Of a stretch of 64,000 bases of DNA, positions 16,443-55,752 are shown piece by piece. A model generated the notes under the pieces. It was given only the letters and a program-made list of their open reading frames with translations, did not search any database and had not been told where the DNA came from. Origin of the DNA: Fibrobacterota bacterium (GTDB taxonomy: Bacteria; Fibrobacterota; Chitinivibrionia; Chitinivibrionales; FEN-1185); NCBI GenBank assembly GCA_003165595.1, contig PLWQ01000009.1, positions 79,516 through 143,515 of the forward strand. Reading direction: 5' to 3'. The number at the start of each line of letters is the position of its first letter. Positions within the stretch are counted from its first letter, which is position 1. The position numbers and the translations under genes are program-made.

Positions 16443-16481
16443 GGCAGTTATTCAAGCCTCTCGGATACCCTCACCCCTGCC

Positions 16482-16505
16482 CCCTCTCCCGTTAACGGGA
16501 GAGGG
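16482..16505. repeat. Perfect 12-bp-arm palindrome between mcp and cheA
   Basis: CCCTCTCCCGTT is followed directly by its reverse complement, inside a segment of the CCCTCTCC/GGAGAGGGG repeat type that recurs at 17027, 25277, 25963 and 41351. It could act as an attenuator between mcp and cheA, but no T-run follows. Confidence 0.6.
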
Positions 16506-16561
16506 GAAAAGGGACAAGGAGAGATGGTTTGAGTGGTTACACCTAAAAGCGGTTACAAACT

Positions 16562-18922
16562 ATGGAAAATAGAAACGATGAATTCCTGAAACGGCTCCGG
16601 GCGACATTCCGGATCGAGGCGGAGGAACACGTGCGTGCGATTTCGGCCGGTCTCATCGAACTGGAAAAGACCTCGGGGCCGGAAAGGCGCGCGCAGATAG
16701 TTGAAACCATCTTCCGCGAGACCCACAGCCTCAAGGGCGCGGCCCGTTCGGTGAGTTTGAATGACATCGAGTCAATCTGCCAGCCTATGGAGAGCATGTT
16801 TGCAGCGGTGAAGCGGCAGGAAATTGACTTGACCCGTCCGATGTATGATCTGTTTCACCAGGCGGCGGATGTTATCACGCAACTCGTCGCAGAAACGGGA
16901 GAAGAGAGTGCACCCGCATTCCGATCGCGCAGCCGGGACCTTGCCAGGCAGCTTAAGGAAATGTCCGAAGGAAACGCGGAAGTTGAAATGCCCCGAAGCA
17001 CAGCATTGAGGAATCCGGAATTTGCAACTCACCCCTCCTTACCTTACCCGGCTTCTCCTCTCTCAAAAGAGAGGGGACCTGCGGCGGGTGAGTCCGAGCC
17101 GAAGCACAGCTTAGAGGAACTAAACCCGTTGCCATTGATAAAACAGGATTTGCCGAAGCCGGGTTTTTTAGCGGAAACCGTAAGGATCCCAACGGCCAAG
17201 CTTGACCCGCTCCTTCTTCAGGCGGAAGAAATGATAACCGTCAAGACAGCCGCAACTCAGCGGGCAAAGGAATTGCAGGAAATCAATGCCGAGGTTGCTT
17301 CATGGAAGACCGAATCGGTCGGAGGTCGGGGCACTGGCGTCGGGGGCCAGGGTGCGGAATGGAACGAGTTTTTGGCCTGGAACGAAGGGCGACTCAATGC
17401 GATTCAAAGCCGGATATCAGCGGTGGCCCGCGCGGCCGAACAGGATCGGCGCGTCGCGGATCGTCTGGTGGATGAACACCTTGAGTCAATGAAAAGCGTT
17501 TTGATGCTACCGGTTGGCTCATTGGTTGAGGTGCTTCCCAAACTGGCCCGCGATCTTGCGCGCAGCCAGGGCAAAGAGGTGGAACTGACAGTCCAGGGAA
17601 CGGAGATTGAAATAGACAAGCGCATACTGGAGGAATTGAAAGACCCGCTTATCCACCTTGTTCGGAATTGCGTTGACCATGGCATTGCGAAGCCCGAGGA
17701 ACGAAAGGGGGAAGGCAAGCAATCCTGCGGGTCGATCAAAATAACCTTTACGGCAAAAGAAAATCGCAGGATGGAAATTTTGGTATCGGACGATGGTTCG
17801 GGGGTCGCTGTGGATAAAGTTCGGGCAGCGGCATCAAAGCTGGGATTATTGCCGTCGGATGCCGCAAAGCAGTTGTCGCCCCGGGACGCCTTGCAGCTCA
17901 TTTTCCGTTCAGGTGTATCAACCAGCCCAATTATTACGGACATTTCGGGACGCGGGCTTGGACTTGCCATTGTGCGAGAAAAAGTCGAGAAACTCAACGG
18001 TGTCGTGTCCGTGGAAAGTGCAATAGATACAGGTACTACATTCCGGCTTGTTGTACCCATGACGCTCGCCACGTTCAGGGGTGTTATTGTGCGGGCGGGC
18101 GAATGTGAGTTTGTAGTGCCTGCTATTAACATCGAGCGTGTTTTGCGGGTGCGCCAGGACGATATCAAGACCGTCGAAAACCGTGAAACAATCCGCCTGG
18201 ATGGCTCCTTGCTGCCACTGGCCCGCCTGCGCGATACTTTGGAATTGCCTGCCAGCAAAACCAGAACGGGAGCATCCGGATCTCCCGGACCCGCAGAAAG
18301 TACTCACATGCCTGTGATTGTCCTTTTCTCCAGCGAAAAACGGTTTGCTTTTCTTGTCGACGAAGTGTTGCAGGAGCAGGAAGTGCTGGTAAAAGGGATC
18401 GGCACGCAGTTGAAACGCGTTCGCAACATCGCGGGCGCTACAATTCTTGGAACAGGCAAGGTCGTGCCCGTGCTTAACGTAGCGGACCTGATGAAGTCGG
18501 CAGTTTTGACAGCCGCTGGTTCCCGGAAAGAAACGGCGGCCGGGCAAGCCCCGGCCGGTGCGGGAAGAATCCTTGTGGCCGAAGATTCCATTACATCGCG
18601 TGCCCTGCTCAAGAATATTCTGGAAACGGCCGGTTTTCGGGTGACGACCGCCGTTGACGGCGCGGACGCCCTGGCGCAGGTTCGCAGCGGCGAATTCGAC
18701 CTGGTGGTGTCTGATGTCGACATGCCGCGAATGAACGGTTTTGAGCTTACGGTAAAAATCCGGGCGGACAAAAAACTCGGCGAAATGCCGGTGGTTCTGG
18801 TGACCGCGCTCGAATCGCGCGAGGACAGGGAGCGCGGCATCGATGCAGGCGCGAATGCCTATATTGTCAAGAGCAGTTTTGATCAGAGCAATTTGCTGGA
18901 AGTTGTCCGAAGATTTCTTTGA
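16562..18922 (+). CDS. cheA: CheA histidine kinase fused to a receiver
   Basis: This 786-aa hybrid CheA has P1 (HPt) with H55 in RETHSLKGAARS, a long linker, P3 dimerisation helices (about 210-345), the P4 ATPase (HLVRNCVDHGI, DDGSGV, GRGLGLAIVREK), a P5 CheW-like domain (500-650) and a C-terminal receiver (665-786, phospho-Asp D718 in VVSDVDMPRMNG). No CheY-binding P2 domain is evident. Its linker contains two repeat-derived inserts (residues 156-178 and 251-267). The fused receiver probably acts as phosphate sink or internal output. It lies 120 bp after mcp and is followed by GGTCAGGG repeats and the S23 gene. Confidence 0.93.
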   Translation: MENRNDEFLKRLRATFRIEAEEHVRAISAGLIELEKTSGPERRAQIVETIFRETHSLKGAARSVSLNDIESICQPMESMFAAVKRQEIDLTRPMYDLFHQAADVITQLVAETGEESAPAFRSRSRDLARQLKEMSEGNAEVEMPRSTALRNPEFATHPSLPYPASPLSKERGPAAGESEPKHSLEELNPLPLIKQDLPKPGFLAETVRIPTAKLDPLLLQAEEMITVKTAATQRAKELQEINAEVASWKTESVGGRGTGVGGQGAEWNEFLAWNEGRLNAIQSRISAVARAAEQDRRVADRLVDEHLESMKSVLMLPVGSLVEVLPKLARDLARSQGKEVELTVQGTEIEIDKRILEELKDPLIHLVRNCVDHGIAKPEERKGEGKQSCGSIKITFTAKENRRMEILVSDDGSGVAVDKVRAAASKLGLLPSDAAKQLSPRDALQLIFRSGVSTSPIITDISGRGLGLAIVREKVEKLNGVVSVESAIDTGTTFRLVVPMTLATFRGVIVRAGECEFVVPAINIERVLRVRQDDIKTVENRETIRLDGSLLPLARLRDTLELPASKTRTGASGSPGPAESTHMPVIVLFSSEKRFAFLVDEVLQEQEVLVKGIGTQLKRVRNIAGATILGTGKVVPVLNVADLMKSAVLTAAGSRKETAAGQAPAGAGRILVAEDSITSRALLKNILETAGFRVTTAVDGADALAQVRSGEFDLVVSDVDMPRMNGFELTVKIRADKKLGEMPVVLVTALESREDRERGIDAGANAYIVKSSFDQSNLLEVVRRFL
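17027..17093. repeat. Palindromic repeat inserted in frame in the CheA linker
   Basis: Outer arms ACTCACCC (17027-17034) and GGGTGAGT (17086-17093) enclose an inner hairpin with arms of the CCTCTCTC/GAGAGGGG type around AAAA (near 17056-17077). It is translated as the proline/serine-rich CheA residues 156-178 and matches the intergenic CCCTCTCC repeat family. Confidence 0.6.
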
Positions 18923-19043
18923 AAGGGGTCAGGGAGCAGGGGTCAGGGAGCAGGGGTCAGAGGTCAGGGGTCAGAGGTCAGAGGTCAGAGGTCAGGGGTC
19001 AGTTGGAGGGATTTTAAGGGCCGACCCCTGACGCCTGATCCCT
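18923..19043. repeat. GGTCAGGG tandem array with inverted arm, left of the S23 gene
   Basis: At 18926-19000 units of GGTCAG(G/A)GG follow one another about ten times. After a 20-base spacer the reverse complement CCGACCCCTGACGCCTGATC follows (19021-19040). The transcript could fold into a long hairpin with several registers. The same design recurs on the other side of the S23 gene at 19452-19550. Confidence 0.75.
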
Positions 19044-19060
19044 AAAAAGAAAGGAAGAAA

Positions 19061-19444
19061 ATGAGTATAAAGAGTTATCGGGATTTGGAAGTATGGAAAA
19101 AAGCCATGGATTTAATCGTGGAATGTTACGGGATGACAGAGTGTTTTCCGAAAAAGGAAACCTTTGGACTTTCAAGTCAGTTACAGAGAGCCGCGGTTTC
19201 AATAGCAGCGAATATTTCAGAAGGCCATGCTCGCCAGCATACCAAGGAATTTCTCCAGAGTCTGTCAATATCATACGGTTCACTTGCTGAATTGGAAACC
19301 CATATACTTATTGCCGAAAGATTGCACTATACTGATAACCAGCATTCAATAAAACTCCTGGATAAGACAGCAGAAATAGGGCGGATGCTCAACGGCCTGC
19401 GCAGATCTTTGGAAAAAAGTCGGAATGAGGTGGAAAATGCCTAA
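19061..19444 (+). CDS. S23/IVP-type four-helix-bundle protein
   Basis: The 127-aa protein belongs to the four-helix-bundle family first described from 23S rRNA intervening sequences. Diagnostic segments are SYRDLEVWKKAMDL, FGLSSQLQRAAVSIAANISEG and the helix SYGSLAELETHILIAERL. Molecular function is unknown; relatives such as Avd of diversity-generating retroelements bind nucleic acid. It is not inside an rRNA here but between cheA and cheB, bracketed by GGTCAGGG palindromic repeats, with its stop overlapping cheB by 8 bases. That arrangement suggests a cassette inserted into the che operon. Confidence 0.85.
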   Translation: MSIKSYRDLEVWKKAMDLIVECYGMTECFPKKETFGLSSQLQRAAVSIAANISEGHARQHTKEFLQSLSISYGSLAELETHILIAERLHYTDNQHSIKLLDKTAEIGRMLNGLRRSLEKSRNEVENA

Positions 19445-20585
19445 TCAAATAACAGGGGTCAGGGATCAGGGGTCAGGGAACAGGGATAAGGAAACGAACC
19501 AGATTCCCGAACTCCGACCCCCGACCCCTGACACCCGGCCCCCGATCAAGGTCCTCATTGTCGAAGATTCGCCCGTGGCGCAGGAATTCCTGACCTATAT
19601 GCTTACGTCCGATCCGTCAATACAGGTTGTCGGCGTGGCGCATAATGGGGCCGAGGCCATTGAAGCTGTAAAGGTGAAACACCCCGACGTTGTAACCATG
19701 GATATCCACATGCCCGTCATGGACGGCTTCGAGGCGACCAGAAGGATCATGGAAACCGTTCCCACGCCGATCGTTATCGTAAGCGGAAGCACCGGGGCCG
19801 GCGAGGTGGGCGGAACTTTCCGCGCAATCGAGGCCGGCGCCCTGGCCGTTGTTCGCCGTCCGCCCGGCATCAAGCACGAAGAATTCGAGGCCGGTTCCAG
19901 GGAACTGATACAAACGGTAAAACTTATGTCCGAGGTGAGGGTGGTAAAACGCATCCCCAGAGTATTCAAAGTAGATGTGCCGGAGCGACCGGTTCTATCC
20001 CCGCCTTTGCAGAGGACTGCCGGAATACAGGCCATTGCCATTGGCGCGTCCACCGGCGGGCCTCCGGTGCTCAAAGATATCCTTTCGGGTCTGCCGCAAG
20101 GTTTTCCCGTTCCAGTGCTCATTGTCCAGCACATTGCGCAGGGCTTTGTAAAAGGTTTTGCGGAGTGGCTTTCCGGTGCGTCCCGCTTTCCGGTAAGCGT
20201 TGCATCGCAGGGCGAGCTTCTTGCGCCTGGACACGGTTATGTCGCCCCGGATGGTTTTCATATGGGATTAGGAAACGGGCCAACCATCGCGCTGAGCGAC
20301 CACGCGCCGGAAAACCACCTGCGGCCTTCGGTTTCATACCTTTTCCGGTCTGTCGCGCAGGTGTTGGGCCCGGCCGCGGTGGGCGTGCTGCTCACCGGCA
20401 TGGGCAGAGACGGGGCGGAGGAATTAAAGGTGATGAAAGAAAAGGGCGCTATCACTATTGCGCAGGATGAAGAAAGTTCCGTTGTGCACGGTATGCCGGG
20501 CGAGGCAATCAAGCTCGGCGCGGCAACGTACGTTCTTCCGCCCGAAGGCATTACAGCCTTGCTGGTGGAGCTGGTGAAAAAGTAG
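19437..20585 (+). CDS. cheB: CheB methylesterase response regulator
   Basis: The 382-aa enzyme has a receiver (37-160, phospho-Asp D89 in VVTMDIHMPVMDG) and a methylesterase/deamidase domain with S205 in IGASTGGPP, the VQHI histidine and Asp in LLTGMGRDG, the family catalytic triad. It removes methyl groups from the receptor. The ATG at 19437 overlaps the S23 gene. The first 36 residues (TGVRDQGSGNRDK, then RPPTPDTRPP) are translated from GGTCAGGG repeats and are not part of any CheB fold. Translation may really begin later, but no in-frame ATG occurs before the receiver. Confidence 0.9.
   Translation: MPNQITGVRDQGSGNRDKETNQIPELRPPTPDTRPPIKVLIVEDSPVAQEFLTYMLTSDPSIQVVGVAHNGAEAIEAVKVKHPDVVTMDIHMPVMDGFEATRRIMETVPTPIVIVSGSTGAGEVGGTFRAIEAGALAVVRRPPGIKHEEFEAGSRELIQTVKLMSEVRVVKRIPRVFKVDVPERPVLSPPLQRTAGIQAIAIGASTGGPPVLKDILSGLPQGFPVPVLIVQHIAQGFVKGFAEWLSGASRFPVSVASQGELLAPGHGYVAPDGFHMGLGNGPTIALSDHAPENHLRPSVSYLFRSVAQVLGPAAVGVLLTGMGRDGAEELKVMKEKGAITIAQDEESSVVHGMPGEAIKLGAATYVLPPEGITALLVELVKK
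19452..19550. repeat. GGTCAGGG repeat with inverted arm inside the cheB 5' end
   Basis: CAGGGGTCAGGGATCAGGGG begins near 19454, and the inverse arm CCGACCCCCGACCCCTGAC lies near 19515-19533. It mirrors the array at 18923-19043 and is translated as the CheB N-terminal extension. Confidence 0.7.
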
Positions 20586-47392: not shown

Positions 47393-47523
47393 AATGCTTT
47401 CTGGATCGCTGAACGGGGCGTGAAGAAAAGGATTAAGGCGGAAGGATGAAGGATGAATGAAATGCAAAATCAATTCAATCCAAAATCAATGCAAATTCTT
47501 TCTGGATCGCTGAGCGGGGTGAC
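47393..47523. repeat. Pair of ~30-bp direct repeats before the GH16 gene
   Basis: The TTCTGGATCGCTGA(A/G)CGGGG motif with flanks occurs at 47393-47424 and 47494-47523. The second copy ends 15 bp before the TTG start, so it could be a control site or a small duplication. Confidence 0.6.
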
Positions 47524-54696: not shown

Positions 54697-55752
54697 TCAT
54701 TGGCTGTTTGTCCTTGAATATCGACAGGTGGTGGCCGTTGTCCTATTCGAAAAGTTCGGCGAAAACGCCTCAATAGAGAAGAAGTTGAAAGTTGGCAGTT
54801 GACCGTTGACGGTCAACTAACCCTATCGATGATTCTGGAAGGGCGCAGTTTTAGCATTTCGTCATCAGCGCCGCCCCCGCGGCCGGAGGGTTGGTCCGCT
54901 CGTGCGGACTTGACTTGTATTGTTTTGTTTTCCTTCCCCCTCAGCGGCGCAGCCGCGGCCGGAGGAGGACGAGTCAAGCGAATCGCAACATCCTCTTTCT
55001 GGCATCTTGCTTTTCGCCATCAGCGACGGCCCTACGGCCTCCGGATTGGCCGCTCGTGCGAATTTGGCTTGTGTTGTTTTGCTTTTCTTCTTTCGCCATC
55101 AGCGACGCCCCATGGGACCGGCAGATTGGTCCGCTCGCGTCGTTCAAGGCCGGCATCTTTTGAGGATTTGGGAAAATGTCCTGCCGGACGCGTTCGCGAG
55201 CGGCCTGCCGGCTCATGGGTACCGGCGGCGCTGCAGGCGCGGCGTTCTTTGCTTACTTTCTTTCGCTGCAGAAAGAAAGTAAGTCTGGGTTCGGGAGTGA
55301 AGCTCCCGACTCAGTTTATTCCGGGGGTGCCGGGGGGCGACCCTCCCGGCTCTGTCTATTGGCAACCGAAACCATCCTAAAGCAGCCGGTGCTGATTGCG
55401 GCAGGGAAGTAGGCTGTCGTCGAGTTCCCTGTAACCGCGTGCTGCTTTCATTTCAACAATTGCCAAAATTCCTCTTGAATTCGGCTTCCATTTGAGATAA
55501 TATTAAGTTTAAGCTGCGGAAACTTAATACGTTATGAGGGGTTCGTCCGTTGTAAACAACGGATAAATTCCCGGCAGAAGCAACATTTTATTTGGATGAA
55601 CGAATTTACGCGATCAGGCAGACGCAGCCCTGTGACGTACCTTGGCTATAAATGCCCTCGCGTGTCCTGCAAAGAGAAGTGGTACAGGCCGTTATGATAG
55701 GAGAACTGAGGCGCCGGCCGCCCCGGCAACCCATTACCATACTGGAACACGC
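54697..55752. repeat. 1-kb repeat island before the GT35 gene
   Basis: No gene is seen. Positions 54840-54975 carry partial copies of the ~170-bp family, 54977-55245 a full copy (R4) with an internal duplication, and 55327-55352 the inverted 26-bp GAGCCGGGAGGG motif. The A/T-rich stretch 55440-55600 could hold a promoter for the GT35/enzyme I operon, but no clear -35/-10 pair was found. Confidence 0.65.
54977..55245 (+). repeat. ~170-bp family repeat, copy R4 (with internal duplication)
   Basis: It contains two consecutive CGCCATCAGCGACG starts, then AAGGCCGGCATCTTTTGAGG and TGTCCTGCCGGACGCGTTCG, ending GCTGCAGGCGCGGCG. It is nearly identical to R1 in inverted orientation; together they bracket about 8.8 kb. 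Confidence 0.75.

Follow-up and report, generated by a model that had tools for sequence, protein, structure and literature searches.

A single S23/IVP gene set between reverse-complementary arrays of a 7-nt (sometimes 8-nt) unit is likely to be a widespread compact element of approximately 400 to 700 bp, and we propose that the gene and its heptamer arrays, which would act as terminal inverted repeats, probably form a mobile element, the mRNA counterpart of the intervening sequences (IVS) of rRNA. The architecture is constant across many phyla. The S23 intervening sequences of rRNA are known; what is added here, and is new within the open-access literature that was searched, are heptamer-ended S23 cassettes between the genes of operons. 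In that literature, from which subscription papers and most preprints are missing, no title or abstract ties heptamer arrays to S23 genes that lie outside rRNA.

The S23 insertion between cheA and cheB

The window, by which we mean the whole 64-kb stretch of DNA that was analysed, carries an S23-bearing insertion of approximately 622 nt in a che operon, and all features described here lie on the + strand. Upstream of the insertion is cheA (16562..18922), identified as an open reading frame with Hpt, HATPase, CheW, and receiver domains by Pfam. Directly after its stop codon comes the left heptamer array (18921..19002; direct repeats, lag-7 score 47), with the unit GGGGTCA/GAGGTCA/GGGAGCA, and then the left inverted arm CCGACCCCTGACGCCTGATCCCT (19021..19043), found by inverted-repeat detection. 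The S23 (23S_rRNA_IVP) gene (19061..19444) encodes a four-helix-bundle protein of 127 amino acids that matches the whole PF05635 model (positions 1–106 of 106, E 2.5e-38, 131 bits against a cut-off of 33.8), and its nearest solved structures by sequence are 2gsc (E 7e-23) and 2rld, with five chains deposited for each. The right heptamer array (19444..19491; direct repeats, lag-7 score 17) has the same unit and direction as the left one and is followed by the right inverted arm (CCGACCCCCGACCCCTGACACC..., 19494..19547; lag-7 score 14 at 19494–19544), which is the complement of the left array.

An earlier note, made from the sequence alone, had described an S23 gene with repeat arrays and inverted arms on both sides within the che operon, and this description held in repeat, shuffle, and Markov tests. 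The 3 arrays reach lag-7 scores of 47, 17, and 14, and no score above 11 arose when the whole window was resampled 20 times with a Markov model. The letters that the note gave for the repeat (GGTCAGGG) held only in part. They are enriched, with 6 copies in the stretch around the S23 gene (at 18927, 18941, 18962, 18990, 19457, and 19471) and 8 in the 64-kb window against an average of 1.76 and never more than 5 in 100 shuffles, but the true unit is the heptamer given above, and the signature of the element is the seven-base period with left-right complementarity, not the letters GGTCAGGG. No GGGGTCA 14-mers were found elsewhere in the source genome, all 6 matches being at this locus. The layout of an array plus an inverted arm on each side is also true for the window but is a minority layout elsewhere: an inverted unit is present in the left flank too in only 8 of 159 elements, the usual form being '> S23 <' rather than '> <' on each side. 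The placement unlike the classical rRNA location held as well, the gene lying between cheA and cheB.

A 39-nt inverted repeat encloses the window element, with arms that are 74% complementary and 522 nt apart (the second arm at approximately 19512–19547), so that the element meets the IVS criterion of enclosing terminal inverted repeats. As RNA, the left array and the right arm are predicted to pair with −51.5 kcal/mol and the left array and the left inverted arm with −39.7 kcal/mol; the local hairpins of this copy are predicted at −39.7 and −44.5 kcal/mol. The predicted RNA fold of the whole stretch has only a moderate advantage over shuffled sequence (z −2.3, with 1 of 20 shuffles as good).

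The right array has also become coding sequence of cheB (19425..20585; open reading frame, Pfam, and start-codon list), as had been claimed. The first 40 or so codons of this gene (19425–19544) are the tail of S23 and the heptamer array read as protein. The in-frame ATGs at 19425 and 19437 overlap the end of S23, and the next ATG, GTG, or TTG is a GTG at 19575, inside the receiver domain. Because no usable start follows 19437 until inside the receiver domain, the right array encodes the N-terminus of CheB, and we infer from the start codons that the window copy has taken over the start of CheB.

Other repeats were seen in the window. At 54782–54830, AGTTGAAAGTTGGCAGTTGACCGTTGACGGTCAACT is an array with an inverted arm and without an S23 gene, resembling a solo (S23-less) derivative, and at 47428–47460 there is a short period-7 array (GGAAGGATGAAGGATGAATGA) where no S23 gene was seen. 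Inside cheA, at approximately 17310–17350, GTCGGAGGTCGGGGCACTGGCGTCGGGGGCC contains heptamer-like units that are read in frame in CheA (VGGRGTGVGGQGAE); these could stem from an old solo insertion into the coding sequence. At 16468–16519, in the gap that separates the mcp gene from cheA, there is a REP-like palindrome around CCCTCTCCCGTTAACGGGAGAGGG.

Arrays and S23 genes across phyla

Of 136 Fibrobacterota genomes, 85 have a member of the S23/IVP family, which was also found across the sampled bacterial loci and at one archaeal locus; its records bear the annotation 'S23 ribosomal protein' or 'four helix bundle protein'. A cross-phylum set (set A) consisted of the best 80 of 579 relatives and is biased to S23 proteins near the query alignment; flanks were usable for 78 of the 80 loci, 2 having been dropped for flanks under 150 nt. 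Cross-phylum, Fibrobacterota, and plasmid loci together gave 223 unique elements, from which 3 with flanks under 100 nt were dropped, leaving 220. Most loci come from draft genomes and bins. An array with a 7- or 8-nt period (score ≥10) was present on at least one side of 197 of the 220 S23 elements, in many phyla, and on both sides of 118, against 3, 3, and 12 for control lag pairs in the same elements. At the remaining 23 S23 genes no array above this threshold was found. Within set A, a lag-7 score ≥12 was reached in 50 of 78 left flanks and 40 of 78 right flanks, against 0 of 78 left and at most 1 right flank at the control lags 4, 5, 10, 11, 13, and 17, and against 3.9% of 1374 windows lying more than 1.5 kb away. 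In 50 kb of E. coli K-12, none of the lags tried gave an array of score 12.

The source genome has 4 PF05635 matches. The 2 full-length S23 genes other than the window copy (L002 and L004) have arrays with distinct units (AGTTGAA and GGTCATT), and the partial gene L003 has a period-8 array on one side. Plasmid copies in Calothrix, Nostoc, Anabaena, and Riemerella have inverted arrays, and in the Trichormus copy only the left array is clear. A lag-8 left score ≥12 was reached at 10 of 78 cross-phylum loci, and an 8-nt instead of a 7-nt unit was seen in L093, L105, L108, L123, L127, L129, and L142. Some loci have unusual arrangements. At L328 (G006:C68), 3 consecutive S23 matches approximately 70 nt apart are accompanied by period-7 or period-8 arrays, and in a type I-D CRISPR-Cas operon on the Anabaena sp. 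90 plasmid pANA02 (L149) an S23 element with long CAGGTGA arrays separates cas6 from cas4. L012, L014, and L015 are S23-like genes that miss the family cut-off (PF05635 E 1e-5 to 5e-7), and no array scoring above 8 was found beside them. At least L012 and L014 adjoin what we take to be genes resembling those of type I restriction-modification systems, and the 3 array-less genes could represent a domesticated branch.

Left and right arrays match each other, and their letters drift. Among the 116 elements with period 7 on both sides, the left unit matched the reverse complement of the right unit at ≥6 of 7 positions in 81, against a mean of 4.9 and a maximum of 14 in shuffles; comparing the 2 sides on the same strand gave 2 of 48 in the cross-phylum set. 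This is massive covariation, in which the letters of the unit drift and complementarity is kept. A conserved sequence motif for the arrays was rejected, the only pattern common across loci being a loose RKRRNYR (3.91 bits against a letter-shuffled maximum of 3.62). That the heptamer is fixed by the S23 lineage holds only weakly: between different sites, unit similarity followed protein similarity with a Mantel r of 0.19 (0 of 500 shuffles as high). That it is fixed by the insertion site was rejected by comparing same-site with different-site units. At the same site, elements with <50% protein identity mostly have unrelated units, sharing them no more often than different-site pairs do, and those with >70% mostly have a common unit. 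Because dissimilar S23 genes at one site differ in unit and similar ones share it, the unit is the element's own, with fast turnover. Thus, the repeat unit changes quickly between copies, and left and right stay matched. In the left array of FAYRKL-type elements (L161, L178, L180, and L181), small palindromes were seen at one fixed place, with different letters and the pairing kept.

The earlier note had held that S23 genes lacking such repeats, together with repeats occurring freely without S23 genes, would refute its reading. The opposite of the first was found, with arrays at 197 of 220 S23 genes. Free arrays do exist: set A has 185 lag-7 arrays (score ≥14), of which 81 are more than 400 nt from S23 and the other 104 are within that distance. 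Yet these free arrays resemble the unit of their own S23 neighbour. The 72 that could be compared have a mean identity of 5.14 of 7 with the S23 unit of their own locus against 4.08 with those of other loci (0 of 1000 shuffles); an N-run in L073 that had been listed as an array was left out of this comparison. Given this resemblance, the free arrays may be solo derivatives or may have spread in trans. Earlier catalogues of heptamer repeats cover Geobacter (GGACCGG; PMC2700814), Beggiatoaceae (TAACTGA), cyanobacteria, and Bacteroidetes (PMC4679880), and Xanthomonas and Nostoc (GGGANTN; PMC4692102). The term 'S23' is absent from all 3 papers, as are 'four helix' from PMC4679880 and PMC4692102 and 'four-helix' from PMC2700814.

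Empty and filled sites

Among 40 genomes of the same order that were searched, the one close orthologous cheA-cheB junction, L334, has no S23. Its CheB is 78% identical to that of the window and the last 48 CheA residues are 90% identical, and only 24 nt separate the cheA stop codon from the GTG of cheB, with a purine-rich stretch ahead of the start. More distant cheA-cheB neighbours (L335–L337) have no room for S23. Because the L334 junction is empty and L335–L337 leave no such room, the window carries an insertion, and the claim that the S23 gene breaks the usual cheA-cheB junction held. The cheB locus of another genome (G002, L017) was unusable as an empty site, a different gene lying upstream of cheB.

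Two further junctions were followed through 80 Fibrobacter genomes (genus inferred). The lysS-lolC junction, with 73 loci, contains S23 in 34 and lacks it in 34, and 5 were unscored (one of which, L163, has S23). Most empty loci have a gap of a few nt between stop and start. The fills are of 4 S23 types, each with its own heptamer: KDLVVWQKA (AGTGGTT), RDLVVWQQA (AGTAGAC/AAGTAGG), FAYRKL (ACGAGAG/AAAGACG), and RDFxSLEIW (GAGGTAT/GAGGTGT). One site is thus used by unrelated S23 copies. Degenerate CTCGTCT-like units persist in 4 empty loci, and a FAYRKL-type remnant lies beside lolC in 4 of 7 KDLVVWQKA fills, because of which successive occupancy of this junction is suggested. On a local host tree of 62 loci, occupancy changes 27 times against a shuffled mean of 29.9. 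This tree rests on approximately 900 nt of conserved genes, is weak, and leaves out 11 of the 73 loci, and it shows only that occupancy hardly follows the tree. At the second junction, next to an SPFH gene, the 47 best-scoring of 77 matches were examined; 14 contain S23 and 33 do not, stop and start being 3 to 5 nt apart in 16 of the 33 and the gap being unscored by motif in the other 17. Elements of the FAYRKL type occupy both of these Fibrobacter junctions and have the same unit there (L186; L233 and L254).

Some lysS-lolC loci carry additional hairpins. L242 and L243 contain heptamer hairpins without S23 that look like deletion derivatives. The lysS end of L160, L174, L153, L179, and L170 carries perfect hairpins whose loops are three bases long (GC-GAA-GC, GC-GGA-GC, GC-AGA-GC). 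In these hairpins the stop-codon region of the host gene is repeated, inverted, just before the left array; they could be snap-back copies from insertion.

In one clean same-genome pair, the mobile unit is delimited by the arrays. In genome G039, L363 and L364 are 87% identical over 322 nt and have unrelated flanks, and the similarity begins at the outer edge of the left array and stops with that of the right array. This is the only same-genome pair with fully unrelated flanks that was seen; a second pair (L329 and L362, 99.7% identical) shares its left flank. Altogether 24 pairs have ≥72% nucleotide identity, several of them in a common context, and 2 Calothrix plasmids considered as a transposition pair were dropped, their surrounding genes being shared.

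The elements insert where only a few bases separate a stop codon from the start codon that follows, and mostly in sense to transcription. In the cross-phylum set the median element is approximately 468 bp and often starts only a few bases from the stop codon upstream, and the neighbour is co-directional with S23 at 57 of 74 loci upstream and 51 of 71 downstream. Of the 68 set-A loci at which both sides could be scored, 40 have both neighbours co-directional with S23 and 7 have both opposite (40 versus 7, binomial p 1e-6). An antisense insertion was found on a Nostoc plasmid (L148), between ribonucleotide reductase (nrd) genes. Purifying selection acts on the S23 protein: among 88 Fibrobacterota pairs the median dN/dS is 0.091, and every pair is <0.5. 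A tree of 84 S23 proteins requires 35 changes of phylum, against a minimum of 15 and a shuffled mean of 53, with many forks unresolved, and in it the nearest to the window S23 is a Chloroploca protein (62% identical).

Mobility, rival explanations, and relation to known systems

The earlier suggestion of a small mobile or recombining cassette is supported by the empty cheA-cheB junction, the filled and empty Fibrobacter sites, the same-genome copies, and the arrays at 197 of 220 genes. The criteria for a mobile element that are met are the existence of filled and empty sites (L334, lysS-lolC, and the SPFH junction) and of near-identical copies at unrelated sites (L363 and L364). The criterion of a known recombination or strand-transfer enzyme is not met, as the element encodes S23 alone, and the analysis revealed neither a transposition intermediate nor a target rule or an enzyme. 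We infer that the element would lack a promoter of its own and would be co-transcribed with the host operon. In the transcript the arrays would pair into a stem enclosing the S23 frame, as in the rRNA intervening sequences cut by RNase III; the host message may then be cut at this stem, with both neighbours remaining translatable. RNase III processing of mRNA copies is inferred because the pairing and the enclosed frame match the plan of the Coxiella 23S rRNA IVS. The S23 protein, a pentamer in solved relatives, may bind its own array as RNA or single-stranded DNA and may take part in mobility, with an unidentified strand-transfer enzyme that would probably be the host's. We propose that left-right matching may be kept by selection for pairing together with template switching between the arms.

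Three other explanations were weighed against this mobile element. S23 might be a stably inherited operon gene whose arrays are its own binding sites, for autoregulation or mRNA processing, grown by replication slippage, with presence and absence reflecting loss and homologous exchange. The strong purifying selection on S23 and the retention of the unit in same-site copies with >70% protein identity speak for this explanation. We nevertheless regard it as unlikely, since one junction is filled by 4 unrelated S23 types in some loci and is a clean gap of a few nt in others, occupancy changes on the host tree (27, 62 loci) nearly as often as in shuffles (29.9), same-genome copies at unrelated sites end at the arrays, and phyla are mixed in the S23 tree (35 changes against a minimum of 15). 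A still less probable explanation is that self-expanding heptamer repeats, of the kind catalogued in Xanthomonas, Nostoc, Beggiatoaceae, and Geobacter, create palindromic landing sites, into which S23 inserts as a passenger. Arrays without S23 do exist (81 of 185 in set A; L242 and L243), and free heptamer repeats have been reported without mention of S23 (PMC4692102, PMC4679880). Against this stand the clean empty sites without an array, the unit that follows the element and not the site, and the 104 of 185 set-A arrays lying within 400 nt of S23.

It also seems very improbable that a resident reverse transcriptase (RT) or an IS200/REP-type Y1 transposase mobilises the element in trans, which would make it a retroelement or a hairpin transposon. 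The S23 relative bAvd works with a reverse transcriptase, and hairpin ends resemble Y1 substrates. In favour are the weak match of the window S23 to the bAvd profile (E 9.5e-8, 32.9 bits, below the cut-off of 40) and a co-occurrence of S23 and Y1 slightly above chance (Y1 in 47 of the 85 genomes with S23 and in 19 of the 51 without it; Fisher p 0.052). Against it, 49 of the 85 S23-bearing Fibrobacterota genomes have no RVT_1 match, 26 have neither RVT_1 nor Y1_Tnp (although undetected or lost enzymes cannot be excluded), and the presence of RT and S23 is not associated (Fisher p 0.36). An RT partner as a general requirement was rejected on the counts in the 136 genomes (S23+RT+ 36, S23+RT− 49, S23−RT+ 17, S23−RT− 34), and a Y1 partner is not required either (S23+Y1+ 47, S23+Y1− 38, S23−Y1+ 19, S23−Y1− 32).

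The proposed element resembles several known systems. S23-encoding IVS of 23S rRNA (Coxiella, Leptospira) likewise have an S23/IVP frame within terminal inverted repeats and total approximately 430 nt. In Coxiella, tandem heptamers (GACAGAT) precede the S23 start, and 28-bp terminal repeats form a stem that RNase III removes; S23 was concluded to be probably untranslated there, and the IVS was called a selfish element (PMC4990558). The elements described here differ in lying between protein genes of operons and in having heptamer arrays at both ends, with a unit that varies per copy. That they are 23S rRNA insertions was rejected: with E. coli 23S as the query, no 23S rRNA was found in any examined locus, and the window copy lies between cheA and cheB. 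S23/IVP frames also occur in insertions of both 16S and 23S rRNA genes of CPR bacteria (PMC11270868), because of which S23 elements are not tied to one rRNA site. These insertions have the protein family in common with the present elements and differ in sitting inside rRNA genes; neither heptamers nor 'S23' appear in the text of that paper. The heptanucleotide repeats of Xanthomonas and Nostoc, Beggiatoaceae, and Geobacter share the period of 7 and the mainly intergenic position, and the Xanthomonas consensus, conserved at positions 1–4 and 6, resembles the RKRRNYR of S23 elements (PMC4692102), but they were reported as quadruplex or regulatory repeats, without S23. The diversity-generating retroelement accessory protein bAvd is a related four-helix bundle with a sub-threshold Pfam match; however, its criteria (a profile match above the cut-off and a neighbouring RT) are not met by the window S23, and the sole RT match of the source genome is on contig C29, whereas the window is on C14. 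MITEs and REPINs are similarly short, hairpin-forming, and intergenic, whereas the S23 element encodes a conserved protein and its ends are arrays set by period, not by sequence.

A bolder reading, which we lean slightly against, is that these elements form a new class of mobile element, with ends set by a seven-base period and mutual complementarity instead of a fixed sequence. Such an element would move between intercistronic gaps, and occasionally into rRNA, probably as RNA or in a single-stranded hairpin form to which the S23 pentamer binds and with the chemistry done by host enzymes, and the rRNA IVS and the heptanucleotide repeats of many bacteria, long without an explanation, would be its specialised and decayed descendants.

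The S23 family has until now been noticed mainly inside ribosomal RNA genes, and to our knowledge no function is known for it. The view of S23 as part of a mobile cassette would give the family a function, would explain how the intervening sequences of rRNA can arise, and would offer an origin for the heptanucleotide repeats that have been catalogued separately in cyanobacteria, Xanthomonas, and others. S23 cassettes would then be a natural kind of insertion that goes into an operon in the gap from one gene's stop codon to the next start codon and leaves the genes unbroken.
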